This document shows positions 51,986 through 64,000 of a DNA stretch of 64,000 nucleotides, piece after piece; the first letter of the stretch is position 1; every line of letters begins with the position of its first letter. A program made the position numbers and the translations under genes. The stretch lies in contig NZ_CP102589.1 in NCBI RefSeq assembly GCF_032818155.1, positions 3,582,001 to 3,646,000 of the forward strand. Reading direction: 5' to 3'. The notes under the pieces are model-generated. The model was not told where the DNA came from, did not search any database, and saw only the letters and a program-made list of their open reading frames with translations. Source of the DNA: Niallia taxi. Lineage in GTDB: Bacteria > Bacillota > Bacilli > Bacillales > Cytobacillaceae.

Positions 51986-52558
51986 ATGTCTGAAAAAATC
52001 AGCGCTATATTAATTGGAAGTCTTCTTATTGGCATTGGTGTAAATGGCTTTTTAGTTCCCCATCATCTTCTTGATGGTGGCCTTATTGGGATAGGGCTCA
52101 TCCTTCATTACCATTATGATATCCCGACAGGCTTGTCGATGATTCTAGTCAGCATACCAATTTATATCATCATATGGTTTTACAATAAGCGATATATAGC
52201 GTATGGATTACTAGGTTTTTTAATATCATCTGGCATGATTGACGTGTTTTCTTTTATGCGCGAAACATTCTCTACTAATATTATCATAAGCTCTGTTATC
52301 GGCGGGAGTGTCATTGGCATCGGCATTGGGATAATGCTCCGGTTTGATACGAGTACAGGCGGTACCGATATGCTTGCACAAATGCTTGCAAACATCTTCA
52401 GATTTCCTGTAGGCATCATTATATTTATAATAGATGGACTCGTCTTGTTAGGCGGATTAAAGATTGTTGGACTTTCCGTTTTAGCTGCTTCATTTTTAAC
52501 GATTATATCTGTCGCCATCTTCACTACATTACTTACGAAAAAAATAGCTTCTGCATAA
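51986..52558 (+). CDS. Short YitT-like membrane protein (DUF161 only)
   Basis: This 190-residue protein has five TM helices and the YitT motifs VNGFLVPHHLLDGGLIGIGL and MLRFDTSTGGTDMLAQML, but no C-terminal DUF2179 domain, unlike the paralogue at 37822. The function is unknown. ATG 51986 follows AGGGTGATTGTTTA. It diverges from the LacI-type gene and converges with the six-gene operon. Confidence 0.87.
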   Translation: MSEKISAILIGSLLIGIGVNGFLVPHHLLDGGLIGIGLILHYHYDIPTGLSMILVSIPIYIIIWFYNKRYIAYGLLGFLISSGMIDVFSFMRETFSTNIIISSVIGGSVIGIGIGIMLRFDTSTGGTDMLAQMLANIFRFPVGIIIFIIDGLVLLGGLKIVGLSVLAASFLTIISVAIFTTLLTKKIASA

Positions 52559-52588
52559 AAAAACTGCACTCCAATTATCGGAGTGCAG
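52557..52588 (-). terminator. Terminator of the six-gene exopolysaccharide operon
   Basis: Stem CTGCACTCC / GGAGTGCAG (52564-52572 with 52580-52588), followed on the minus strand by seven U residues. It closes the operon that starts near 63.4 kb. Confidence 0.85.
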
Positions 52589-52596
52589 CATACTCA

Positions 52597-55461
52597 CTAT
52601 TCTTGCTCTTCTGGGATTAAAACTTGCCCGATTTTGCCCATTTTCAGCAATGTTTGCAGGATGGAACGAGAAAGCTGGCTTGGCGGATATGGTTTTACTA
52701 AATAGTCATTTGCGCCTAGTGCTATCCCTTTTTCCTTTTCATCTAATGCAGTGGAAACAACAATGGGTATATTTTTCATATTCTCTGAGTTCTTCATTGC
52801 CTTCATAATATCCCAGCCATCCATTTTGTTGTCCTCTAGCATGATGTCAAGAACGAGGGCATCTGGCTGCACCTCCTCCATCTTCTTCAGTCCTTCTATT
52901 CCATTTTTTGAATAGAAGACATGGAAGTCGCTTTCCTGCAGTTCTTGAATAATAAGCTCTGCCAAGCTGTAGTCATCTTCCACTACCATTACCTTATAAC
53001 GGACTTTTTCATCTGTACTTACATCCGATGTAGACGTCTCCATATTCCACTCAACACTCGGGAAGCTCATGGTGAATGTGCTGCCATTGCCATATTCGGA
53101 ATTAATCGTTATATCTCCTTCATGTGCTAGCATGATTTCCTTCACAATTGCTAATCCCAAACCAGTTCCGCCAATTTTACGACGGTCTGAATTATCTATT
53201 CTATAAAACTTTGTAAACAGTTTATCAAGTGCTGTTTCTGGAATTCCCAAGCCTTGGTCCTTCACAGCAACCTTCAGGTATCCAGCCTCTTGATAGATGC
53301 TGATATCTATATTACCGCCGTCAGGTGAATATTTGATAGCATTATTAATAATATTTGTGAACGCCTGCTCAACTTTTGATCTGTCACCAAGGATAAACGT
53401 GTTCTTTTGTGAGTTATGAATATTAATCTGATGTTTTGTAATATTCACCTCTTGGTTTTCAACAACTCTTTCTAAGATTGGAAGCAATTCAATATATTTT
53501 TTCTCATATGTCTGTTTGCCTGCTTCCATTCGTTGAACATCAAGGAAGTCATTAATTAAAGAAGTTAATCTTTTTGTTTCTCCATAGATTGTATTCAAAT
53601 ACTTTTTCTGTCTTTCAGGCTTCAAATCACGGTTTATTATTAGCTCTGTAAATCCAAGGATACTTGCAAGCGGTGTACGAAGCTCATGACTAACCGTGCT
53701 GACAAACTCAGACTTCATTTTGTCCACTTCATATTCCATCGTGATGTCTCTGTAGACGAAAACAGTCCCGAATTTTTCATCCCCTCTGTATAAATGTTCA
53801 CTATATACTTTGACTATCTTATCTTCCCTCAATTTATAAATGAATGAATCTGTTTGAGAAACCTTCATCGACTGTTTGATATAGGCAATTAATGCATCTG
53901 TATCCTCTAGATTTTCTTGCAGCTGTCCTGTCCATTCCTGCCACTTCTGCCCGCCAAGAATCTCTAGCTCGCCCTTATCAGACATAATTTCATAAAACTT
54001 GCTGTTCGCGTGAATAATATCACCTTTAGTGCTCACTAATTGGATGCCTTCTTGGACGTTGTTAAGAATATCCCTGTTCAAGATTCTATCCTTTTCTGTT
54101 TGTTCGAATAAATGAATCTTATCTAAAGAAATTCCAATTTGTTTTGCCAAAGCAATAAACTCTTCCATTTCCAATTCCGTGAAGCCACAAGCAAATCTGC
54201 TAAGCATCATAATCGCTGAAATATCACCAGAAGTTGCTAAAATTGGCACATAAAGATCATGTACTCTTCCAGTTTCAAGATGGTAGCCTTTTTCAGATAG
54301 ATGCAAATCCCTTAAGATTGTAAAAGGTGATTTTTCCAATTCAAGGCGATGAAACATCCCTGTATAAAGATGTCTTGTAAATTGCTCTGCTCCTTCATTT
54401 GAAATACCGAATGCTGCAAAGGCACTGCTTTCAACTTCTATAATAATTCCTCTGTCAGCACGAACAACGTCACACATATTTACAATGATGCTCTCAAGCA
54501 CCTCCTGTTTATCAAGAGAGCTTGACAGACCATTAATAAACCTATTTCTGCGCATTAATGCATCTTCATTTAACTGAACGGTCTCAAGTACCTTTTCCAA
54601 TTCAAATTGCTGTGCCTGCAGTTCATCCTGCTGTGCCTGCAGCTCTTCATTTTGGGCAAGTAAATCTTGTTCTTTTTCTTGAATACTTAAATACATCTGT
54701 TCAAATGCAATCGACAATGTTGCCAATTCATCTTCCCGGTTTTTAACAAGTGTAATTTCTGCTTCATTTCCTTTGGCTACTTCATTTGCTGTAACGGCAA
54801 AATCAGTTAATGGTTTGCCAATTCTCCTTACCATCATTCGGCCGAGAAGTAACACTATTGCTAAAACGATAATGATATATACAAGAAAAGCGACTTGCAG
54901 CATGGCAATATGACTTGTAAGCTTACTTACTTCATCCGTCAGCGAATTAGATACCGATTGAAGATAGCTTGTTTGCAATTGTTGAAAGGTATTAATTCTA
55001 TCAGTTGCACCATTATTGGCAATGGAAGACACAGCATCATTATCACCAGATTCAAAGTATGCAATTGCTTCAGGCATAGCTTCATCAAAATAAAAATGGT
55101 AAAAGGACGAAAGTTCTGTTGAAAAACGAATATCCTCCTCAGATGTCACCATTTTATCTAATTCATTAATCAGCTTTACAATATCAGCTTGCTGACTTAA
55201 TGCTGACTCCTTTAAATTCTCGTTATCAAAGGCAAAATACCCTCTGATATTAAACATTGCGCTATTCAGCTTTGTTTCTATCTGTCTTACCGTTGCCTGC
55301 TTTTCAACAAGCTCTTTGCGGTTATTAACATATTCATTGTTAACAGAGTCCTGTAGAAAGACTAATACAAGCCCTCCTAATATAAACAATAGAATGAAAA
55401 AGCATATTAAGGCCATAAATTGCCTTGATATGCTTTTTCTAATATAGGAATTAATCTTCAT
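52597..55461 (-). CDS. Hybrid sensor histidine kinase (extracellular domain-HAMP-GAF-PAS-HisKA-HATPase-REC)
   Basis: This 954-residue membrane kinase has TM1 (about 16-37), a helical CHASE3-like extracellular domain (45-185), TM2 (187-207), HAMP (208-260), a coiled coil rich in QAQQDELQAQQ, a GAF-like domain (about 305-450), a PAS-like domain (460-575), HisKA with His592 in VSHELRTPLAS, HATPase with NIINNAIKYSPDG (N box) and GGTGLGLAI (G box), and a C-terminal receiver with Asp872 (VLDIML) and VKPYPP. It is the last gene of the operon; ATG 55461 overlaps the preceding receiver gene by 11 bases. It probably starts the phosphorelay feeding the receiver and Hpt domains encoded upstream. Confidence 0.9.
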   Translation of the reverse strand: MKINSYIRKSISRQFMALICFFILLFILGGLVLVFLQDSVNNEYVNNRKELVEKQATVRQIETKLNSAMFNIRGYFAFDNENLKESALSQQADIVKLINELDKMVTSEEDIRFSTELSSFYHFYFDEAMPEAIAYFESGDNDAVSSIANNGATDRINTFQQLQTSYLQSVSNSLTDEVSKLTSHIAMLQVAFLVYIIIVLAIVLLLGRMMVRRIGKPLTDFAVTANEVAKGNEAEITLVKNREDELATLSIAFEQMYLSIQEKEQDLLAQNEELQAQQDELQAQQFELEKVLETVQLNEDALMRRNRFINGLSSSLDKQEVLESIIVNMCDVVRADRGIIIEVESSAFAAFGISNEGAEQFTRHLYTGMFHRLELEKSPFTILRDLHLSEKGYHLETGRVHDLYVPILATSGDISAIMMLSRFACGFTELEMEEFIALAKQIGISLDKIHLFEQTEKDRILNRDILNNVQEGIQLVSTKGDIIHANSKFYEIMSDKGELEILGGQKWQEWTGQLQENLEDTDALIAYIKQSMKVSQTDSFIYKLREDKIVKVYSEHLYRGDEKFGTVFVYRDITMEYEVDKMKSEFVSTVSHELRTPLASILGFTELIINRDLKPERQKKYLNTIYGETKRLTSLINDFLDVQRMEAGKQTYEKKYIELLPILERVVENQEVNITKHQINIHNSQKNTFILGDRSKVEQAFTNIINNAIKYSPDGGNIDISIYQEAGYLKVAVKDQGLGIPETALDKLFTKFYRIDNSDRRKIGGTGLGLAIVKEIMLAHEGDITINSEYGNGSTFTMSFPSVEWNMETSTSDVSTDEKVRYKVMVVEDDYSLAELIIQELQESDFHVFYSKNGIEGLKKMEEVQPDALVLDIMLEDNKMDGWDIMKAMKNSENMKNIPIVVSTALDEKEKGIALGANDYLVKPYPPSQLSRSILQTLLKMGKIGQVLIPEEQE

Positions 55462-55819
55462 CAAGAATATCCCCTACTTTGTCTAGTAATGCGAGGGGAC
55501 TAAAAGGCTTCGCCATAAAGTAATCTGCCCCGACCTCTAATATATAATTTTGTTCTGATGCTTGATTTTTTGCTGACAGCATTAATATTTTCAAATGCTT
55601 CTTCGCATCATTAGCCCTGACCTTTTGGATGACTTCCAACCCAGTCATAATTGGCATCATATAATCTAAAATAATTAAGTCGTAGTCATGCTTTTCAATC
55701 AGCTGGAGAGCCTCTTCCCCATCTGGCGCTTCATCAACTGTATAATCTTCATCTTCAAGTGTGTCTACTATTAACATTCTCAAAACATCTTCATCTTCAG
55801 CCAACAATATTCTCTTCAT
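55451..55819 (-). CDS. Single-domain CheY-like response regulator
   Basis: This 122-residue stand-alone receiver has the acidic pocket LLAEDEDV, phospho-acceptor Asp52 in LIILDYMMPIMTG, the Ser in MLSAKN and Lys in MAKPFSP. It has no output domain, so it is likely a phosphorelay intermediate or acts by protein binding. ATG 55819 follows GGGGAGAGAGAATAC, 14 bases after the glycosidase gene, and its end overlaps the kinase gene. In the operon it lies between polysaccharide enzymes and the hybrid kinase, suggesting His-Asp transfer with the kinase and the Hpt domain of the cyclase. Confidence 0.92.
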   Translation of the reverse strand: MKRILLAEDEDVLRMLIVDTLEDEDYTVDEAPDGEEALQLIEKHDYDLIILDYMMPIMTGLEVIQKVRANDAKKHLKILMLSAKNQASEQNYILEVGADYFMAKPFSPLALLDKVGDILDED

Positions 55820-55833
55820 GTATTCTCTCTCCC

Positions 55834-58800
55834 CTAATTCCCTATTTTAGAGAAGGCCTCTTGTAATATATAATAAGATTCTTTTAGTCGTTCATGATAG
55901 GCAGGTTCCTCCCAATTGTCCCAGGTAAACTGCTTCGTGTTTTCTAGATGAATTTTGTTGTCACTTCCCATTTCAGGAAGTGTTTGCACAATCTTTTTAT
56001 CCTTTTCCATCACGATAGCCATATGTATACCTTCGATTACTTGGCTGCCTTCCATGCCCTTCTTCCACAAGTCGGCCAATATTTCCTTCTGACTCGGATC
56101 TTTGATATTCAATAAAGCCCATGGTATGCGGAGCTCTATTGTCTTTTTATCCTCACTTACACTAATATCGGTAAGGCTGTTAAAATCTTTACTGGTTGGA
56201 TTACCATTCCCGTATAATAATTTCCCTGTTTCATACGAATTGAACGGAATCGTTTCCCCTTGAATTTCCAACTCTTTATTAAGGGCAAGTCTGATTGGAT
56301 GGTATACACCATTATTCTTTTTACTTGCATAGCTTTCTTTCTTTATCATGTTTAAAAGATGTCCATAATGCAAGTAATAAGAATCATAGTAGCTGTCGAT
56401 AAGAATATGGGAATCATTCTTTTCACCAATTTTAACAGCAAAGTCGACGCCAAAATCTGTATCCACTTTTTCGTTTCCTTCTAGTGCTGTACTTTTCTGA
56501 CCTTGATCTGCAATTGTATCTAACAAGAGATAAGTATGATCTGTTTTAAGGTTAATCGAATCCTTATAATTAATCTTAAAGCTCAGCTGCTGCTCATCTG
56601 AAGTAACACTTACATCTTGAACAGTATTTTCTTCCTTGTCAGATGCAGTATATAATGGCGGAACATTTAGCTTATTCCAATCCTCTGTACTTCCATCTAT
56701 GTAGATGGTTGGCTCATACTTGCCAGGATCAAAGCTTAATAGACCAAAATGCTGCTCATTTGTTTGGATATTGGACCAGAACGGCCGTCTGTTTGGATTA
56801 TCATAATCCATTGTGTTCCATGTCCTTTTAAACCATTCATCCTGCCATGTGAAGACAAGGCCACCTGCATATTTCTCGTCGAGTATCATCTGGTAAAGGC
56901 TCTTATCGATATTACCCTGCTCTTTCTCGGAAATAAAGCCTTGATTCATCCCATTAACATTCTCATGCGTTTTTCCCCGCGATGCTGGCACACCAAACTC
57001 AGCCACCATTACTGGCATGTCATGCATCTTACGCAGCTGGTTTAAATATGCTGCATAATTGCTTTGCTCACCTTGTTTGTTTTTATAGGTGGAATAACCC
57101 TTCTCATAGTTCAAAAAGTCTGGGTAATACGGATAAACATGATAGGCTGCAAACAGACCTGCATGGAACTTATCTGTTTTCTTAATATGATTCGGATCAA
57201 CGACTGCCTTGTCTTCGTCCTTACTCGGCTCTGCTGGATGGTCAAGCATGTCTGTTGTCACCCAGTTGGTAAAGCTCATCGTATGCTGCCATTTGTATTG
57301 CTTTGCTTCATAATCAGCTGAGTAATCCATTAGCTTCGCAAGCCAAACCTCAAATGGAGATGCTTTTTCTGTCTTAAAGTAAGTACCTACATAGTTTTTT
57401 GCACCCTTGTGTTTATCATCCGTATAGTTGACAACATCAGGGTCCCACTCTGTTCCAAGCATAAACCCAAGAACATATGGAGATACGTCATACTCATACT
57501 TACCTGAAGCGTGTCCTGTTCTCTCCGGCAAATCCGCCTTTCCATGGATGATGTCAATCATGTTCTTGATTTCTTCCTTCGCATCCGCTGTTACTTCTTC
57601 CGAATAAGCGTCTTGCTTTTCTGTCAAAACATCTTCATTAACCCAAGTGCCGTGAATAAGATACAACGGTTCTTTTGCACTTTGGTTATATTCATATAAT
57701 GCTTGATAAAAGCCTGGGGGATGCAATGTGTAAACCCTGATTGTATTGGCATGCATTGCTCCAATTTCATTAAACCAACGATAATATTCATCCTTTGTTA
57801 TGGATGTTTCACCAGGAAATGCTCCAGGCTTGGAAATCCCCATATTAACACCTTTAATTACGAGGTCTTCCCATTTCCCATCCTTTTTAATCTGAATAAA
57901 TTCATCATTTGTCCGGCTGTTTGTTTCTATTTGACCAACCTTCACTGTTTCTACACTGTTTTCTTTAGCTGCTGGTTTATGTAGACCATCCCTCAAAATA
58001 CTCTTCATAATCGGTACATAAGTATTCCAGTAAAAGGACTTTCGATAGGTGATGTATTTTTTCCACGTATCAAACCCGACTGTTTGATACAAACTCGGCA
58101 CTTCTGCTTCATCTGCATAATCCCCAGCAAAATAATAGGAGGTATATTGTCCATTTGCATTTTGAACAATCGCTGGAAAAGAGCTTGGTATATTATAACC
58201 TTTAAGTTTCTCCTTGCCTGCTTTCGATACTGGCAATGTATATTGTGCAAGCACACCATCCTGATCGTTTGCTTCAATAATGTCAAACCAGTAATCATAT
58301 TGGGATGTCAACTCTTTATGCAAAACAGAGGTGCCTTTGTTCGTTGTTGTAAACTCGATACCAGTATCTGTTAAATCCTTATTATTCAGAACAACAATAT
58401 AATCTTCTTTATTTATTAAAACAATACCAGAGCCTGTGAAACTCCATTCCTTGCCACTTTGCTCTTTATAGTTATCCCTTACCCAAACAGGAACTTCATC
58501 TCCGTTCAAATCGGAAAAATTCCTGCCAATCCAGCCACTCCACGATACATTAAGCAAAGTGGTGATTTTTTCTCTTGCCTCGTCATTTGTCGGACTAGCA
58601 AATGTATTAAACTCAGCAATTAATGTCTTATTATCTGATTGGAAAAGAGCATTCTCTATTTTGTCAACATCCTCTGTTTCCAACCCGCCATATAATTTAT
58701 CTGATCTCTCTCCAAGCGAATTGCTGCCATAGAATTCCTCTTCGTATACACCATACTGATCTGTCAAATACAGTACATCATAATTACTTAAATCGTCAGG

Positions 58801-59082
58801 AACCTCACTTATCTTGTAATTATTGTCATCTGTTGGCTTAAAGCCTTTATAATCACTTTGACTGTAATACTTGTCTTTATTGGCCTTCACATATTTTTGG
58901 TTATTTAATATGTAAACAAGCCCACTATGCTCCCTATATGTTTTATCTGGAACAGTCTTATCCATTATCAGTACATCCAGTTCCTTCGTCTCCTTCAACT
59001 GCCAAAGCCAAAAGGGACTTAAAATGATGCCAATACCAAGAATGATTAACAGGAAAAACAACCATGTAGTTCTTCTTTTCAT
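55834..59082 (-). CDS. Membrane-anchored multidomain glycosidase-like protein (clan GH-A-type barrel, CBM9-like tail)
   Basis: This 1082-residue protein has one N-terminal TM anchor (about 7-27) and the rest outside. Residues about 33-300 form an alpha/beta domain resembling class I amidotransferase-like or DUF-type sugar-enzyme domains. Residues about 400-770 look like a GH-A TIM barrel (VNMGISKPGAFPGE, NTIRVYTLHPP), with candidate acid/base Glu545 in GTEWDP and nucleophile Glu695 in VAEFGVP. Residues about 790-1060 look like a CBM9-type carbohydrate-binding domain (YIDGSTEDWNKL, WALLNIKDP). ATG 59082 lies in the stop of the glycosyltransferase gene (ATGA), so the two are translationally coupled. 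It probably trims or modifies the polymer made by that enzyme. Substrate unknown. Confidence 0.75.
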   Translation of the reverse strand: MKRRTTWLFFLLIILGIGIILSPFWLWQLKETKELDVLIMDKTVPDKTYREHSGLVYILNNQKYVKANKDKYYSQSDYKGFKPTDDNNYKISEVPDDLSNYDVLYLTDQYGVYEEEFYGSNSLGERSDKLYGGLETEDVDKIENALFQSDNKTLIAEFNTFASPTNDEAREKITTLLNVSWSGWIGRNFSDLNGDEVPVWVRDNYKEQSGKEWSFTGSGIVLINKEDYIVVLNNKDLTDTGIEFTTTNKGTSVLHKELTSQYDYWFDIIEANDQDGVLAQYTLPVSKAGKEKLKGYNIPSSFPAIVQNANGQYTSYYFAGDYADEAEVPSLYQTVGFDTWKKYITYRKSFYWNTYVPIMKSILRDGLHKPAAKENSVETVKVGQIETNSRTNDEFIQIKKDGKWEDLVIKGVNMGISKPGAFPGETSITKDEYYRWFNEIGAMHANTIRVYTLHPPGFYQALYEYNQSAKEPLYLIHGTWVNEDVLTEKQDAYSEEVTADAKEEIKNMIDIIHGKADLPERTGHASGKYEYDVSPYVLGFMLGTEWDPDVVNYTDDKHKGAKNYVGTYFKTEKASPFEVWLAKLMDYSADYEAKQYKWQHTMSFTNWVTTDMLDHPAEPSKDEDKAVVDPNHIKKTDKFHAGLFAAYHVYPYYPDFLNYEKGYSTYKNKQGEQSNYAAYLNQLRKMHDMPVMVAEFGVPASRGKTHENVNGMNQGFISEKEQGNIDKSLYQMILDEKYAGGLVFTWQDEWFKRTWNTMDYDNPNRRPFWSNIQTNEQHFGLLSFDPGKYEPTIYIDGSTEDWNKLNVPPLYTASDKEENTVQDVSVTSDEQQLSFKINYKDSINLKTDHTYLLLDTIADQGQKSTALEGNEKVDTDFGVDFAVKIGEKNDSHILIDSYYDSYYLHYGHLLNMIKKESYASKKNNGVYHPIRLALNKELEIQGETIPFNSYETGKLLYGNGNPTSKDFNSLTDISVSEDKKTIELRIPWALLNIKDPSQKEILADLWKKGMEGSQVIEGIHMAIVMEKDKKIVQTLPEMGSDNKIHLENTKQFTWDNWEEPAYHERLKESYYILQEAFSKIGN

Positions 59083-60491
59083 TTAGATACTCCTTTACGA
59101 CTCATGTCTCCCCAAGACTTCTCCCCTTTAATGAGCTGGAATATCCCTTCACAGCGCCAAAAAACGGTTAATGGCCTGTACCAGAGTGACTCTGTCAGCG
59201 AAAAGAAAAACAGCTTCAGCAAATGAGTTACCTTTGGATACTTGCGGAGGCTCCATTCCTCCAATAAAACTGCTGCCATAGAAAAAATTGATCCATATAT
59301 GCAGGATAATAAAAATATTAAAATGGCAAATTCTAAATAAATACCACCAAAAAAGATCGCAATAACAGCGTATATATACCCTAATATTTCTACAATTGGA
59401 CCGAAAAACTCAATCAACCAAAAATACGGGAAGGAAATCATCCCAATGCTTCCATACTTCGGATTGAATGTCAGTTTTCTGTGATTCCAGAGACTTTCAA
59501 ACAATCCTCTATGCCATCTGCGCCGCTGTCTTCTCAGGAATTTAATATCCTCAGGAACCTCTGTCCAGCAAACAGGATCTGGAACATAGACAATTCTTTT
59601 ATTGACTTTAGATTCCTTCAAGATTCTGTGTATACGGACAACAAGCTCCATATCCTCTCCAACCGTATCTGTTTGATAGCCGCCAGCCTTAATTACCCAT
59701 TGTTTAGAAAACACGCCGAAAGCACCGGATATTATTAACAATAAATTATGTTTACTGAGACCGATTCTGCCCATTAAGAATGCTCTCAAATATTCAATAA
59801 TTTGCATAATAACAAGAGGATGGTTCGATAAACCAATCTCCAGTATATTTCCGTCCTTAATCTTACAGCCATTGGCAATTCGGATGCTTCCGCCTGAAGC
59901 CACTACCTCCTCATTGCTGTCCATAATCGGCTTCATCACCTTCAAGAAAGCATCACTTTCAAGAACAGAATCGCCATCAAGGGAGCATATATAAGGATAG
60001 TTAGAAAAGTTCAGGCCCACATTTAAAGCATCTGCCTTCCCTCCATTATCCTTATCTATCAGAAATAGCCTTGGCAAAAGCTTAGATTGATAAATTGCCT
60101 TGATTGGCTTTGTTTCCACTTGCTTGCGGACAACCTTTTGAACCAGCTCCATATCATAATAATCAATCACCTTTTGCAGTGTTTGATCCTTTGAGCCGTC
60201 ATTTACGACAATAATCTCATACTGAGGATAATCAACACTAAGCAACGAGCGAATACTCGGTATGATTCCCGCCTCTTCATTGTATGCAGGTACAATGATA
60301 GATACAGGCTTTGTGTACAGCCCATCTGCTATGTCCTCAAAGGATTGCTCCCTATTAAGTTGATATTCTCTGCGAAGCTGTACCATTGACACGATAAGAA
60401 TTGCTGTGTAAAAAGTAATAATTATCACCATATATATGGAAATAAATCCACCAAAAAACAATACAGCATTTGTCCACCATTCTAAAACCAA
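59079..60491 (-). CDS. Membrane family 2 processive glycosyltransferase
   Basis: This 470-residue polysaccharide synthase has an N-terminal TM (about 8-38), the catalytic GT2 domain (62-330) and C-terminal TM helices (about 352-372, 375-412 and a final amphipathic region). Motifs: SIIVPAYNEEAG (63-74), VVNDGSKD, the DxD at D172-D174 (SLDGDS), ED at 279-280 (GEDMELVVR) and Q(R/Q)xRW at 322-326 (QRRRW), i.e. the D,D,D,QxxRW set of cellulose, hyaluronan and PNAG synthases. It most resembles the PgaC/IcaA group. TTG 60491 follows GGAGCTAATTAAG. No PilZ domain is attached, so c-di-GMP control, if any, must act through a partner. Confidence 0.9.
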   Translation of the reverse strand: MVLEWWTNAVLFFGGFISIYMVIIITFYTAILIVSMVQLRREYQLNREQSFEDIADGLYTKPVSIIVPAYNEEAGIIPSIRSLLSVDYPQYEIIVVNDGSKDQTLQKVIDYYDMELVQKVVRKQVETKPIKAIYQSKLLPRLFLIDKDNGGKADALNVGLNFSNYPYICSLDGDSVLESDAFLKVMKPIMDSNEEVVASGGSIRIANGCKIKDGNILEIGLSNHPLVIMQIIEYLRAFLMGRIGLSKHNLLLIISGAFGVFSKQWVIKAGGYQTDTVGEDMELVVRIHRILKESKVNKRIVYVPDPVCWTEVPEDIKFLRRQRRRWHRGLFESLWNHRKLTFNPKYGSIGMISFPYFWLIEFFGPIVEILGYIYAVIAIFFGGIYLEFAILIFLLSCIYGSIFSMAAVLLEEWSLRKYPKVTHLLKLFFFSLTESLWYRPLTVFWRCEGIFQLIKGEKSWGDMSRKGVSK

Positions 60492-60492
60492 C

Positions 60493-61542
60493 TTAATTAG
60501 CTCCTTTTATTTGACCTTTATTGATCCATTCCCAAGCCATATCTCTTGCGAAGGGATCTGTTGAATGCCGAAGTACATCTTCAAGCACTATCGTTCCCGT
60601 CTTAAATTTCATAATTGATTCAGCTGCTTGAGACCTAACCCACCATGACCTATCATGAAGCAGCTCCTTTAAGAGCAATAAAGAGGTATCTCCCTTAACA
60701 AACCCAAGCAGTCTTGCAGCCATCATTCTTTCCTGCCAAATATCTGATTGACATAATGGCAGATAAGTATCTATGCTTGAAACAATTCCAATATTAGAAA
60801 TGGCCTTTAAAGCTCTTAGTCTTAGCTCTCCTTCATAGGCGTTGAACACATCCTCCAAGAATTGGATATACTCAAGCTCCTTTCTAACACCCATTACGTC
60901 AATAATTGCCAGCTTAAGCTCCTCCACACATTCATCAAACTGCTCGAGCATGCTCGCAAAGATGTCTTTGTCCAGTCTTGTCAATATACTTCGAAAATCC
61001 TTTTCTGCTAGGAATTCCTGCTTATTGATAAGTGAAAAGATCCCATCATACTGGAAAGAAGCAAGAATCCGGTAAATTTGGATTTTTTCCTCCTTCGATC
61101 GCTTAGAATCTGCCTCAGCCAAGTGAATCAATTCATCTTTTAGCATTTCAAGATGGAAGCTTTCAATATGATAAAGTGTATTCATACGCGTGCTCCATTT
61201 TCGAGCAGTTACGTTTTTCCGATAATAATCTGTCAAGTTTGCTGCAGCTAGCATTCTTAAGCTTTCCTTCTCCTGTTGACCTTCAAGCACTTCCGTATAC
61301 TTTGTAAGAAGCTCTTCAAGCGCCTCCTTTTCAAGCAATGACTCAGCAGTAAAGACAAGCTCATTACGTTTGTCCTGAAGAGTTAGAAAGACATCCTGTG
61401 CTATATTTTCCTTTATTTCGTTTATCTGTTTACGCCTGCTGTTTTCTAATACCTTTCTAATTACTAGATAGGCAAGGAGCATAAGCAAGATCAGAATGGA
61501 GCCTGCAGCCACAACCACTAATAAAATAATTTCCTTCGCCAC
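60493..61542 (-). CDS. Membrane-anchored HEAT-repeat protein
   Basis: This 349-residue protein has one N-terminal TM (about 5-30) followed by a charged helical region and alpha-helical HEAT-like repeats, clearest at about 235-345 (LRALKAISNIGIV, MMAARLLGFVKGDTSLLLLKELLHDRSWWVRSQAAESIMKF). HEAT repeats usually bind proteins. I use GTG 61542, which follows AAGGATGG and lies one base after the cyclase stop; the frame is open upstream into the cyclase gene. It sits between the cyclase and the synthase and may connect c-di-GMP or receiver state to the synthase. No catalytic motif is seen. Confidence 0.8.
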   Translation of the reverse strand: MAKEIILLVVVAAGSILILLMLLAYLVIRKVLENSRRKQINEIKENIAQDVFLTLQDKRNELVFTAESLLEKEALEELLTKYTEVLEGQQEKESLRMLAAANLTDYYRKNVTARKWSTRMNTLYHIESFHLEMLKDELIHLAEADSKRSKEEKIQIYRILASFQYDGIFSLINKQEFLAEKDFRSILTRLDKDIFASMLEQFDECVEELKLAIIDVMGVRKELEYIQFLEDVFNAYEGELRLRALKAISNIGIVSSIDTYLPLCQSDIWQERMMAARLLGFVKGDTSLLLLKELLHDRSWWVRSQAAESIMKFKTGTIVLEDVLRHSTDPFARDMAWEWINKGQIKGAN

Positions 61543-61543
61543 G

Positions 61544-63160
61544 TTAAACCATCCTTTTAATGAGACGGACAATTCTCGCCTGCAGCTCTGTCAAACTAAA
61601 AGGCTTTGTCACGTAATCATCCGCTCCAAGCTTCAATGCTTCCGCAATATCATTTTCACTTTTTCTACCAGTTAGCATGAGTACATGAACATTATTGCGG
61701 TGCTGGGACTTCTTCACTATTTGTAAAATTTCAAGACCGTCCATAACAGGCATAATCCCATCCAAAATTAAGAAGTGGATTCCATTTTGTGTTAGCCTGT
61801 CTGAATCAAGGAATTGCATTCCATCTTCATAGGCTTTCACATCAAGACTGATATTATCAAACTCCAAGGAGCTGAAAATATTAATTAAGATGGAGCGGAT
61901 TAGTGCATCATCATCCACAATCGACACATTCAATTGCTTTGTGGCTTTTGAAATCTTGAGCTTGTTGGCTGTTTCCACCCTTGCTCTGCCACTCTCCTTC
62001 GCCAAATATAAAGCTTCATCTGCAGTTTTTATTGCTGAGTGCAAGCCTATTTCTTTGTTCTCAATTCGATAGATTCCGGCTGAAAATGTAAGTCGGAAGG
62101 TTTGTTCACCCTCTTTAAAGTCTATTTGTGAAAACTCTTCAAGCATACGCTCCAACACTTCTTTTATTTCTGTTTCTGTCGCCCTCTGGAACAGAATGAC
62201 AAATTCTTCTCCACCATAACGGAACAGTGTATCTGTACTTCTAATACTTTTTTTCAAAAATTGAGCGAATTCCATCAGCACCTTGTCACCGACAATATGC
62301 CCATATGTATCATTAACGCGCTTAAAGTAATCAATGTCTAAAACAGCAATTGTTCCGTTAGCATTAAGCCTTGCCATATCACTGATAAACCTACTGTATG
62401 AATCCTTAAGAAATTTACGATTATATACCTGGGTCAATTCGTCAATTAACACAGATTGATCGAATATTTTCTTTCGTTCTAAATGCCGTTCCACTCGTAT
62501 TAAGAATTCCTCGACATCAATCGGCTTCTCAATAAAGTCATCCGCACCCTTTTTGTAAGCCTCGATTCTTGATTCCCTGTCTGTTTTAATACTGCACATT
62601 ATTTTCGGAATGAAAGCTCTATTTGTATGTTTTTGGATAACACTAAGCACCTCAAAGCCAGATTGCTCAGGCAGGTTAATATCAATAATGATGCAATCAG
62701 GATGCATATTATAGTATTGCTCTATCGCCTTTTCTGCAGTCGTGTTGGCAATAACCATCCATCCTTTGCTTTCTAATTTATCCTTAAGGAAGATAAGCAG
62801 GGAAATGTCATCATCAATAATTTGAATAAGTGGTGCATCACCATCCCTTAAATCGGGTGTTTTCCCTATTTCCTCGTGGAAATGTTCATATTCATAGCTA
62901 ATTTCCATAAGGCCGTTCAAAAAGTCTCTTAACTCCTGTATGGACCACGGGTTTTTTCTATTTTCCACCTTCGCAAGCAGCTCTGAGGAAATGCTGTAAA
63001 GCAAATCAAGCTCCAATGTTCCAGAAGTCCCTTTAATAGAATGCAAAAATCGATAAACATCTCTGTTTTCAATCGATGCTTGCTCATTATTATCAAACCA
63101 GCCTGTAAGCTGATTTTTCATCTTCATAATCAATATGCTTTTATATTTATCGAAAATCAT
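61544..63160 (-). CDS. Hpt-REC-GGDEF-REC diguanylate cyclase
   Basis: This 538-residue cytoplasmic protein has four signalling domains. An N-terminal Hpt has His40 in FLHSIKGTSGTL. Receiver 1 (about 112-230) has Asp160 in IIIDINLP. A GGDEF domain (about 240-400) has an intact active site GGEEF (316-320), the inhibitory I-site RSTD (307-310) five residues before it, and DIDYFKRVNDTYGH. Receiver 2 (about 412-535) has Asp467 in LILDGIMP and VTKPFSL. It should make c-di-GMP under phosphorelay control. I use ATG 63160, eight bases after GAGG; an in-frame GTG three codons earlier overlaps that site. First gene of the operon. Confidence 0.92.
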   Translation of the reverse strand: MIFDKYKSILIMKMKNQLTGWFDNNEQASIENRDVYRFLHSIKGTSGTLELDLLYSISSELLAKVENRKNPWSIQELRDFLNGLMEISYEYEHFHEEIGKTPDLRDGDAPLIQIIDDDISLLIFLKDKLESKGWMVIANTTAEKAIEQYYNMHPDCIIIDINLPEQSGFEVLSVIQKHTNRAFIPKIMCSIKTDRESRIEAYKKGADDFIEKPIDVEEFLIRVERHLERKKIFDQSVLIDELTQVYNRKFLKDSYSRFISDMARLNANGTIAVLDIDYFKRVNDTYGHIVGDKVLMEFAQFLKKSIRSTDTLFRYGGEEFVILFQRATETEIKEVLERMLEEFSQIDFKEGEQTFRLTFSAGIYRIENKEIGLHSAIKTADEALYLAKESGRARVETANKLKISKATKQLNVSIVDDDALIRSILINIFSSLEFDNISLDVKAYEDGMQFLDSDRLTQNGIHFLILDGIMPVMDGLEILQIVKKSQHRNNVHVLMLTGRKSENDIAEALKLGADDYVTKPFSLTELQARIVRLIKRMV

Positions 63161-63253
63161 TTGCCACACCTCTTTTACATATTCCCTTACAAAAAAAAAC
63201 GTATCTATCTCTGCCGTTCTTTATTTTGTCTGGTTAGCTTTCCCCTCATAAAT

Positions 63254-63338
63254 AAAAAAAAAACCAGCTAAACTCATGAATAACGGCCGGTTGCACTAGT
63301 TGCTCCAAACAGTTTAAGTGCCCAAATAAAAGCTGTTT
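63254..63338 (-). promoter_or_regulatory. Putative attenuator RNA in the leader of the exopolysaccharide operon
   Basis: On the minus strand a hairpin (arms 63338-63327 and 63316-63307, AAACAG..TTTA with TAAA..CTGTTT) presents the loop TTTGGGCACT. Ten bases downstream, GTGCAACCGG (63296-63287) can pair with the loop (UUGG-GCAC with GUGC-AA-CCGG). The same bases form the 5' arm of a terminator AACCGGC / GCTGGTT (63292-63286 with 63268-63262) followed by ten U residues. The two pairings exclude each other, the layout of a pseudoknot-type switch. In the rest of this 434-base gap I see only the promoter-like and proC terminator elements listed. Confidence 0.45.
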
Positions 63339-63415
63339 TTCATTGCAGTCCAAAAGGTCTATTATTATCATAAATAAGCTAGTATTATTGATGTTATTGT
63401 TATTGAATAATGCTT

Positions 63416-63444
63416 ATTATACATAAATCATGCTGAACTTAAAA
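63416..63444 (-). promoter_or_regulatory. Candidate promoter of the exopolysaccharide operon
   Basis: On the minus strand TATAAT (63421-63416) with the weak -35 TTTTAA (63444-63439) at a 17-base spacing. It would give a leader of about 250 bases that contains the putative attenuator. The -35 is poor, so an activator or another sigma factor may be needed. Confidence 0.4.
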
Positions 63445-63491: not shown

Positions 63492-63538
63492 AAAAAAAGT
63501 CCAAGTTGTTAGGAAAGACTCACAGCTTGGACTTTTTT
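63492..63538 (-). terminator. Terminator after proC
   Basis: Stem AAGTCCAAG / CTTGGACTT (outer arms near 63497-63505 and 63525-63534), U-rich on the minus strand. It separates proC from the six-gene operon. Confidence 0.75.
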
Positions 63539-63594: not shown

Positions 63595-64000
63595 TTATTT
63601 TTGTAATTCTTTGTTCTTTCTTGTACAGTTATCCATTGCAGCCATAATTGTTCCCCTAAACTGCAATTGCTCCAATGTGGCGATCGCTTCAATTGTCGTA
63701 CCACCTGGTGTACAAACCTCATCCTTGAGAATGCCAGGATGCTTACCGGTTTCTAGAACCATCTTCGCTGCACCAAGCAAACTTTGCGCTGCGAGACGAT
63801 AAGAGGTTTCTCTCGGGATGCCGCTTCGAACACCACCATCTGCCAGCGCTTCAATAAACAGAAATGCATATGCAGGGGAGGAGCCGCTGATAGCAGGTAT
63901 AGCATCCATCAAACGTTCTTCCATTACTTCAACCTTACCGAAAGACGTAAACAGGTCGACTGTATACTGTAATTCTTCTTCCGTTATATTTTTATTCGGA
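63595..64000 (-). CDS. proC: Pyrroline-5-carboxylate reductase, C-terminal part
   Basis: The last 134 codons lie in the window and the frame runs off the right edge. The sequence PNKNITEEELQYTVDLFTS then FGKVEVMEERLMDAIPAISGSSPAY and CTPGGTTIEAIATLE are the P5C reductase C-terminal domain (dimerisation and substrate loop). The enzyme makes proline from pyrroline-5-carboxylate with NAD(P)H. The NAD(P)-binding Rossmann half lies outside the window. Bacilli have several paralogues (proG, proH, proI), so proC is used generically. Confidence 0.9.
   Translation of the reverse strand, partial: PNKNITEEELQYTVDLFTSFGKVEVMEERLMDAIPAISGSSPAYAFLFIEALADGGVRSGIPRETSYRLAAQSLLGAAKMVLETGKHPGILKDEVCTPGGTTIEAIATLEQLQFRGTIMAAMDNCTRKNKELQK

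Follow-up and report, generated by a model that had tools for sequence, protein, structure and literature searches.

The 64,000-nucleotide window analysed here (positions 3,582,001 to 3,646,000 of contig NZ_CP102589.1, from the 5.3 Mb genome of Niallia taxi, assembly GCF_032818155.1) carries on its minus strand an operon of six genes for a predicted diguanylate cyclase, a membrane HEAT protein, a family 2 glycosyltransferase (GT2), an anchored glycosidase, a single-domain response regulator and a hybrid histidine kinase. At a probability of roughly 0.6, it is an operon for a synthase-dependent surface polysaccharide that is switched by cyclic di-GMP (c-di-GMP), with the HEAT protein as adaptor. 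The six-gene unit described in an earlier, sequence-only reading was found to be present and conserved in order; from the interpretation given there, the synthase module and the HEAT-GT2 pairing were supported, whereas the intact cyclase as a core part was not. The features concerned, all on the minus strand, are the following:

63277..63360, minus strand: c-di-GMP-II riboswitch aptamer (Rfam RF01786), which heads the operon and ends 116 nt before the cyclase ATG
63252..63292, minus strand: terminator-like hairpin (AACCGGC...GCTGGTT) with a T-tract, its 5' arm inside the aptamer at positions ~68-75
61544..63160, minus strand: cyclase, with ATG 63160 behind AAAAGAGGTG as the preferred start and a longer open reading frame (ORF) from GTG 63169
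61547..61939, minus strand: receiver at the C-terminus of the cyclase, retained alone in four loci (L053-L056)
60493..61542, minus strand: HEAT protein, whose GTG 61542 matches the starts of its relatives (alternative TTG 61572)
59079..60491, minus strand: GT2 synthase of processive type (D, D, D, QxxRW)
55834..59082, minus strand: membrane-anchored glycosidase of 1082 amino acids (aa), similar to glycoside hydrolase clan A (GH-A)
55451..55819, minus strand: single-domain response regulator (Response_reg, E 1.6e-28)
52597..55461, minus strand: hybrid histidine kinase, from ATG 55461 (alternative start 55464)
52554..52589, minus strand: intrinsic terminator of the operon (stem 52563-52589, 12 pairs, T-tract)

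Gene order was compared in a near sample of 61 genomes, drawn from the genus, family and order and counting the window's own; a glycosidase match is present in 23 of them. The other 22 neighbourhoods were fetched (loci and genomes are labelled L and G): 20 hold a full-length glycosidase, L049 is rearranged and L050 is a fragment. The order cyclase-HEAT-GT2-glycosidase-receiver-kinase is kept in 19 of the 20 full-length relatives, and L047 is without the last two genes; among the 19, the cyclase of L033 and the kinase of L041 are each split into two pieces. This conservation (19/20) is far beyond chance. The genome search, which had been proposed together with the sequence-only reading, thus speaks for a unit, as a loss of the order would have spoken against it. 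A scan of species genomes for the glycosidase gave at least 589 matches, of which the best 80 were taken; the 71-, 63-, 39- and 29-locus counts given below rest on these 80. The set spans Bacillaceae, Planococcaceae, Paenibacillus, Cohnella, Alkalibacterium, a metagenome-assembled genome of Clostridiaceae and others, and in 29 of the 80 loci the complete six-gene order is found. The module also recurs in genomes of other classes of the phylum. In a phylum sample of 398 genomes, the glycosidase is matched in 25 and the HEAT profile in 130, the latter in many cases over generic repeats only; at E <1e-25, the HEAT profile is matched in nine genomes, eight of them among the 25 glycosidase genomes and the ninth being G180. 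The 33 distant HEAT matches considered below are selected loci, 13 fetched for the glycosidase and 20 for HEAT alone.

The HEAT protein (HEAT_2 in Pfam, E 6.7e-17) gave an AlphaFold2 model with a mean predicted local distance difference test score (pLDDT) of 95.2, according to which it has one long N-terminal helix as membrane anchor, followed by a solenoid that is probably cytoplasmic. Pfam assigned its neighbour to Glycos_transf_2, and both the membrane HEAT protein and the D,D,D,QxxRW synthase of the sequence-only reading were thereby recovered. Of the 80 loci, 71 contain both a HEAT and a GT2 gene, and in 70 of the 71 the two are same-strand neighbours, at a median distance of -4 bases when each gene is taken as its longest ORF; in the lone non-adjacent case (L068), the GT2 reads in two pieces. 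At the distant HEAT matches, 23 of the 33 adjoin a GT2 of this family or are fused with it (13/13 fetched for the glycosidase and 10/20 fetched for HEAT alone), and a receiver- or GGDEF-profile match lies directly upstream in 18 of these 23. Two natural fusions were found: HEAT, GT2 and the N-module form one 1378-aa ORF in L161:11634-15767 (+), and the GH barrel and HEAT form one 1081-aa ORF in L171:7348-10590 (-). Unless they are assembly faults, these fusions support a physical complex, and together with the adjacency and the absence of any BcsB-family match from the whole genome they uphold the proposed role of HEAT as the close partner of the GT2. The conserved core is HEAT followed by GT2, in most cases preceded by a receiver or GGDEF gene, and the six genes are one variant of it. 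In L161:9427-11634 (+) and L169:11085-12029 (-), the receiver proteins upstream of HEAT-GT2 have a DivIVA-like part, which may tether the machinery to a pole or septum of the cell.

The gene in front of this core in the window encodes two receiver (REC) domains and a GGDEF domain (143.6 bits) by Pfam. Its GGEEF at 319 agrees with the GG[DE]EF signature of active diguanylate cyclases, and activity is predicted; the RSTD I-site is intact (R310, D313 and R341, numbered from GTG 63169). The REC, GGDEF and REC domains, GGEEF and I-site of the Hpt-REC-GGDEF-REC architecture suggested earlier were thus recovered, while Hpt (PF01627) reached 15.8 bits (E 0.016) in the window and 21.3 bits (E 3.2e-4) in the relative L165, at a cut-off of 24.6.

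For comparison, the genes upstream of HEAT were collected from the 71 HEAT loci, of which 3 without an upstream ORF >100 aa and 5 with an ORF unlike the cyclase were set aside. In the remaining 63 genes, the signature is intact in 34, a GGDEF domain is present without it in 25, and the C-terminal receiver stands alone in 4. All three residues R310, D313 and R341 are retained in 20 of the 25 altered-signature genes, and in 17 of the 18 where the signature is clearly gone; in the other seven (L070, L074, L079, L080, L103, L125 and L126), the signatures are near-intact (e.g. GSDEF, GGDKF). In the short forms (n=15, 274-324 aa), each of R310, D313 and R341 is found in 14 of 15, with a mean top-residue share of the domain of 47%. 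An I-site without the signature would be as expected from selection for c-di-GMP binding without synthesis, as in YdaK. Synthesis of c-di-GMP as the conserved core was rejected, because the signature is altered or absent in 29 of the 63 genes, four of which have no GGDEF domain at all. Since most of these 29 keep the I-site, a combined role of the GGDEF protein as cyclase and receptor fits better, and the claim of a c-di-GMP-linked synthase module holds without the intact cyclase as its core. The window protein itself, with its signature intact, is not a degenerate-GGDEF receptor of the PelD/YdaK kind, a description that 20 of the 25 altered relatives fit; it may work like such a receptor without being one. 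In the Neobacillus-type loci L053-L056, all that precedes HEAT of the cyclase is its C-terminal receiver (140-159 aa), and no receiver-kinase pair is present.

A tree of the GT2 sequences was made for 62 of the 63 loci and the window, one locus with a GT2 ORF outside 440-500 aa being dropped. On this tree the signature was altered at least nine times, and in one clade of 15 rows it is lost in all while the I-site is kept in all. Tree counts cannot separate gain from loss, and we infer the cyclase-first direction of change.

The operon is headed by an RF01786 match of 56.9 bits (gathering threshold 53.5, E 1.3e-10), covering model positions 1-84 of 84. A model made from 11 matches lying away from this operon recovered the aptamer at 70.3 bits, and among 132 loci and the window it matched six loci only (L051 is the G002 locus again). 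Class II matches lie directly upstream of the operon in six of 30 chosen genomes (the window's, G002, G005, G006, G011 and G036), and 11 others of the 30 have one elsewhere only. A hairpin with a T-tract follows the aptamer in all six class II loci, its 5' arm being the AACCGGCC-type strand of the aptamer; in three of the other loci it is stronger than in the window (-11.3 to -13.7 kcal/mol). As ligand binding would occupy the strand of the hairpin's 5' arm, an ON switch is predicted, and together with the cyclase a positive feedback loop would result. Control by c-di-GMP, as suggested in the sequence-only reading, is thereby extended to a probable transcriptional action through the riboswitch at 63277-63360, which had been overlooked. 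The riboswitch as a general feature of the module was rejected, with class II directly upstream in only six of the examined genomes that carry the module. In Planomicrobium soli (L101:16821-16909 (-)), a class I match lies 38 nt before a gene that precedes HEAT-GT2 and encodes a 291-aa protein without a Pfam family above cut-off. Another class I match, L080:4679-4771 (+), is located at the start of a 311-aa ORF preceding an altered-signature cyclase and HEAT-GT2-glycosidase. The genome of the window is that of a c-di-GMP-rich Gram-positive bacterium, with 21 GGDEF matches, at least 10 class I riboswitch matches versus this sole class II match found, and a single PilZ gene, which lies outside the window.

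The lone receiver and the hybrid kinase were both recognised by Pfam as described earlier (Response_reg and HisKA/HATPase/REC), the full kinase architecture being a TarH-like sensor region, HAMP, a weak PAS, HisKA, HATPase and REC. The Hpt histidine is kept in 39 of the 63 upstream genes, and receiver and histidine kinase genes (REC+HK) accompany 32 of these 39 loci versus none of the 24 without it. Two of the seven Hpt-histidine loci without REC+HK are contig ends; L059 and L095, at contig ends, were left out of the REC+HK label in the tree-aware test. An intact signature went with REC+HK in a mean of 5.7 of 7 independent pairs and never the reverse (median p 0.031, range 0.031-0.0625), which suggests that kinase and receiver tend to travel with an active cyclase.

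In the proposed mechanism, transcription would start before the riboswitch, where bound ligand would sequester the aptamer's 3' strand and thereby prevent terminator formation (ON). The operon would then yield the cyclase, whose GGDEF domain bears an I-site too. Judging from their co-occurrence, the kinase, the lone receiver and the Hpt-like domain may act as a phosphate relay that sets cyclase activity. At the I-site, c-di-GMP would change the GGDEF-REC protein, which may dock by its C-terminal receiver, the part that relatives keep, on the membrane HEAT protein. The HEAT protein, with which the GT2 is paired and in places fused, would open the synthase, which would extrude the glycan; outside the cell, the anchored GH-A-like protein would trim or remodel the polymer, as its fold and two invariant Glu suggest.

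A number of results weigh against a c-di-GMP-switched operon of this kind. The hairpin of the window is weak by energy (-7.0 kcal/mol, z -1.4), for which reason the ON direction is put forward as a prediction, and the riboswitch is lineage-limited: class II is directly upstream in only six of the examined module genomes, and in two others class I lies before a gene that precedes HEAT-GT2 (L101) or the pseudo-cyclase (L080). The Hpt domain stays below its Pfam cut-off. When descent is allowed for, the proposed tie of kinase and receiver to an Hpt-bearing cyclase, seen in the co-occurrence, is not significant (4 pairs, median p 0.25), and the link between signature and REC+HK rests on 7 tree-aware pairs from relatives sharing ancestry. 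Among tree-aware pairs differing in signature, 3.6 of 6 retain the I-site and 2.1 lose it as well (median p 0.5); because of this split, the signal of I-site retention comes largely from one clade. The seven near-intact signatures may still be functional. The acceptor Asp of the receiver is replaced by Asn in 14 of 15 short forms, and the four receiver-only loci have no c-di-GMP domain, so neither a c-di-GMP nor a phosphate signal is universal. Finally, the polymer is inferred, as are docking, gating and switch direction.

The receiver-only loci could be accommodated by control at the protein level by phosphate, not by c-di-GMP, in which the HEAT protein reads a receiver, and GGDEF and riboswitch are additions in some lineages. 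A receiver-like domain is common to most variants, and by Pfam the upstream neighbour of HEAT-GT2 in L211, L214 and L225 encodes a receiver but lacks GGDEF. However, the largest pseudo-cyclase clade has lost the acceptor Asp and kept the I-site, the reverse of what phospho-control predicts, and the upstream gene of L213 encodes a GGDEF protein without a receiver; this explanation is therefore regarded as improbable. With the same regulation, what the GT2 and glycosidase build or decorate might instead be a glycan attached to the wall, of teichoic, capsule-like or S-layer-linked type, rather than a free polymer of the matrix. The membrane anchor of the glycosidase (helix 3-29) and a GT2 that falls under the cut-off of every named polymer model listed would suit such a product, and the DivIVA-like part on the regulator of two relatives hints at a fixed cell place. 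On the other hand, the best curated match of the GT2 is PgaC/IcaA, and the GT2 profile aligns over most of its length (13-402) with hyaluronan synthase at E 6.3e-10; a chondroitin synthase ranks first by E, with a short segment aligned. Genes for sugar precursors, a ligase or a flippase are absent from the six. These points leave a wall glycan unlikely, if plausible.

That the operon merely joins unrelated neighbours, by chance or for shared expression, with a generic HEAT protein, is very hard to credit. HEAT_2 is a common domain, and 10 of the 20 distant loci chosen by HEAT alone have no adjacent GT2 (one of them, L222, at a contig end), but the order in 19 of 20 relatives, the adjacency in 70 of 71 loci, the gene fusions and the recurrence in other classes of the phylum stand against it, and conservation at 30-60% protein identity contradicts chance neighbours.

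Beyond the c-di-GMP-switched polysaccharide operon preferred here for the window, a broader view is offered tentatively, at somewhat less than even odds: a widespread, undescribed class of Bacillota synthases may exist, with a membrane HEAT adaptor and GT2 as core, steered by a GGDEF-receiver protein, in which the c-di-GMP-making enzyme would have decayed repeatedly in place into its reader, keeping the I-site and losing catalysis and phosphorelay, and in which the Niallia operon would close a transcriptional loop via its own riboswitch. The HEAT adaptor with its receiver-GGDEF partner would, if true, be another way to switch a GT2. With cyclase, pseudo-cyclase and lone receiver at one operon position, the cyclase-to-receptor question becomes directly testable, and this series and the HEAT-GT2 core are the parts most worth testing. 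The six-gene Niallia form has RNA, enzyme, receptor and output within one 11-kb piece.

Known c-di-GMP-controlled synthases use PilZ, BcsB, PgaD or PelD-type partners. We take YdaN to be of the BcsB family and YdaL of DUF2334. In a whole-genome search, no BcsB-family and no DUF2334 match was found, both being found in the Bacillus subtilis control; by these markers, and with the lone PilZ located elsewhere, the operon belongs to neither the yda nor the bcs type. The comparison with ydaJKLMN, pgaABCD and bcs that accompanied the sequence-only reading as a proposal ended without a match to any of them, BcsB and DUF2334 being absent and the GT2 lying under the model cut-offs, and an identity as yda, pga, bcs or pel was dropped, the defining parts not having been found. 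Among curated models, the GT2 is nearest to PgaC_IcaA (126 bits, cut-off 422.3; 117.7 bits for this model, TIGR03937, in the whole-genome search), and the Pfam lists of the six proteins contain no PgaD/IcaD-type or deacetylase domain, in difference from pgaABCD/icaADBC. Second nearest is the XrtG-associated glycosyltransferase (TIGR03111; 111.9 bits, cut-off 363.95), but no exosortase domain is in the same lists. With the bcs cellulose loci, the operon shares a processive GT2 linked to c-di-GMP; unlike them, it scores 39.9 bits with the CelA/BcsA model (TIGR03030, cut-off 699.1), has no BcsB, and has its single PilZ elsewhere. PleD-type response-regulator cyclases likewise combine receiver and GGDEF with an I-site, whereas the window protein reaches 237.6 of 474 bits with PRK09581, has an extra Hpt-like domain and C-terminal receiver, and is fixed to a synthase operon.

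In the proposed c-di-GMP step, the operon may resemble yda and pel. YdaK is reported to need its I-site for c-di-GMP binding (PMC7064775) and to cluster with YdaM/YdaN (PMC7064775, PMC13274460), and the yda operon is SigB-driven (PMC13274460). The ydaJKLMN operon of B. subtilis likewise unites a GT2, a glycosidase and a GGDEF-type c-di-GMP receptor having an I-site; here, a HEAT partner, a phosphorelay, an intact cyclase and a riboswitch are present instead of BcsB-family and DUF2334 proteins. For PelD of Bacillus cereus, the I-site is reported as Arg363, Asp366 and Arg395 (PMC7112168), a spacing of 3 and 32 compared with 3 and 31 here. In difference from pelDEADAFG, no Pel model appears in the complete NCBIfam lists for HEAT, GT2 and glycosidase, the signature is intact and the partner is a HEAT protein. 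No description of such a HEAT-linked system was found in searches limited to the open PMC literature.

The glycosidase, probably extracellular, has its anchor helix at 3-29 in the structure model, followed by an N-terminal alpha/beta module (~30-370), a GH-A-like barrel from ~378, an inserted beta-rich part and a C-terminal helix. The model, of which the fold comparison covers residues 374-1082, has the TIM barrel that defines clan GH-A, with putative catalytic Glu residues on strands 4 and 7, and E545 and E695 are invariant in 60 of 60 sequences; the description as a 1082-residue anchored GH-A-like glycosidase therefore stands. The CBM9-like tail did not: Pfam gave no match, and the beta-rich part (~790-1060) looks inserted, because the last barrel strand precedes it and the C-terminal helix follows it. 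Neither Pfam nor NCBIfam matches the protein at E 0.01, and a PDB sequence search returned nothing, or one chance row. There are 883 relatives in the protein database, the closest (96%) from Niallia taxi. Assignment to a family was not retained, as GH113 of Pfam gave weak matches to 4 of 14 members, the best at E 6.8e-5, and none to the window protein.

Within the 71 HEAT loci, the glycosidase gene is directly after GT2 in 59; in 7 it has the opposite orientation, in 4 it lies at another place on the same strand, and in 1 it is cut off. It was rejected as a fixed part of the module, since in L078, L084, L088, L100, L102, L116 and L129 it is HEAT-less within the fetched stretch; the ~1080-aa protein may therefore serve other polymers too. 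It also occurs without HEAT on the short contigs L094 and L114 and in the distant loci L167, L172, L173, L175, L176 and L180. Conversely, HEAT-GT2 without a glycosidase match within four genes is found in L211-L215, L217 and L219-L221, and two of these genomes, G337 and G075, carry a glycosidase match elsewhere. In other Bacillota, the modules exist as separate genes, namely the N-terminal ~380 residues and a barrel of ~700.

The six minus-strand ORFs occupy 52597-63160 with the preferred cyclase start, and neighbours abut or overlap. With GTG 61542 and ATG 55461, the spacings given earlier were reproduced (gap 1, gap 1, overlap 4, gap 14 and overlap 11), and the one shared terminator was found downstream of the kinase as a 12-pair stem with a T-tract; the end point formerly given, 63444, lies past the first gene of the operon. 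The gene upstream, named from its protein sequence and presumably proC, ends at 63595 and is followed, by eye, by a terminator-like hairpin at ~63494-63537, so the operon probably has a promoter of its own.

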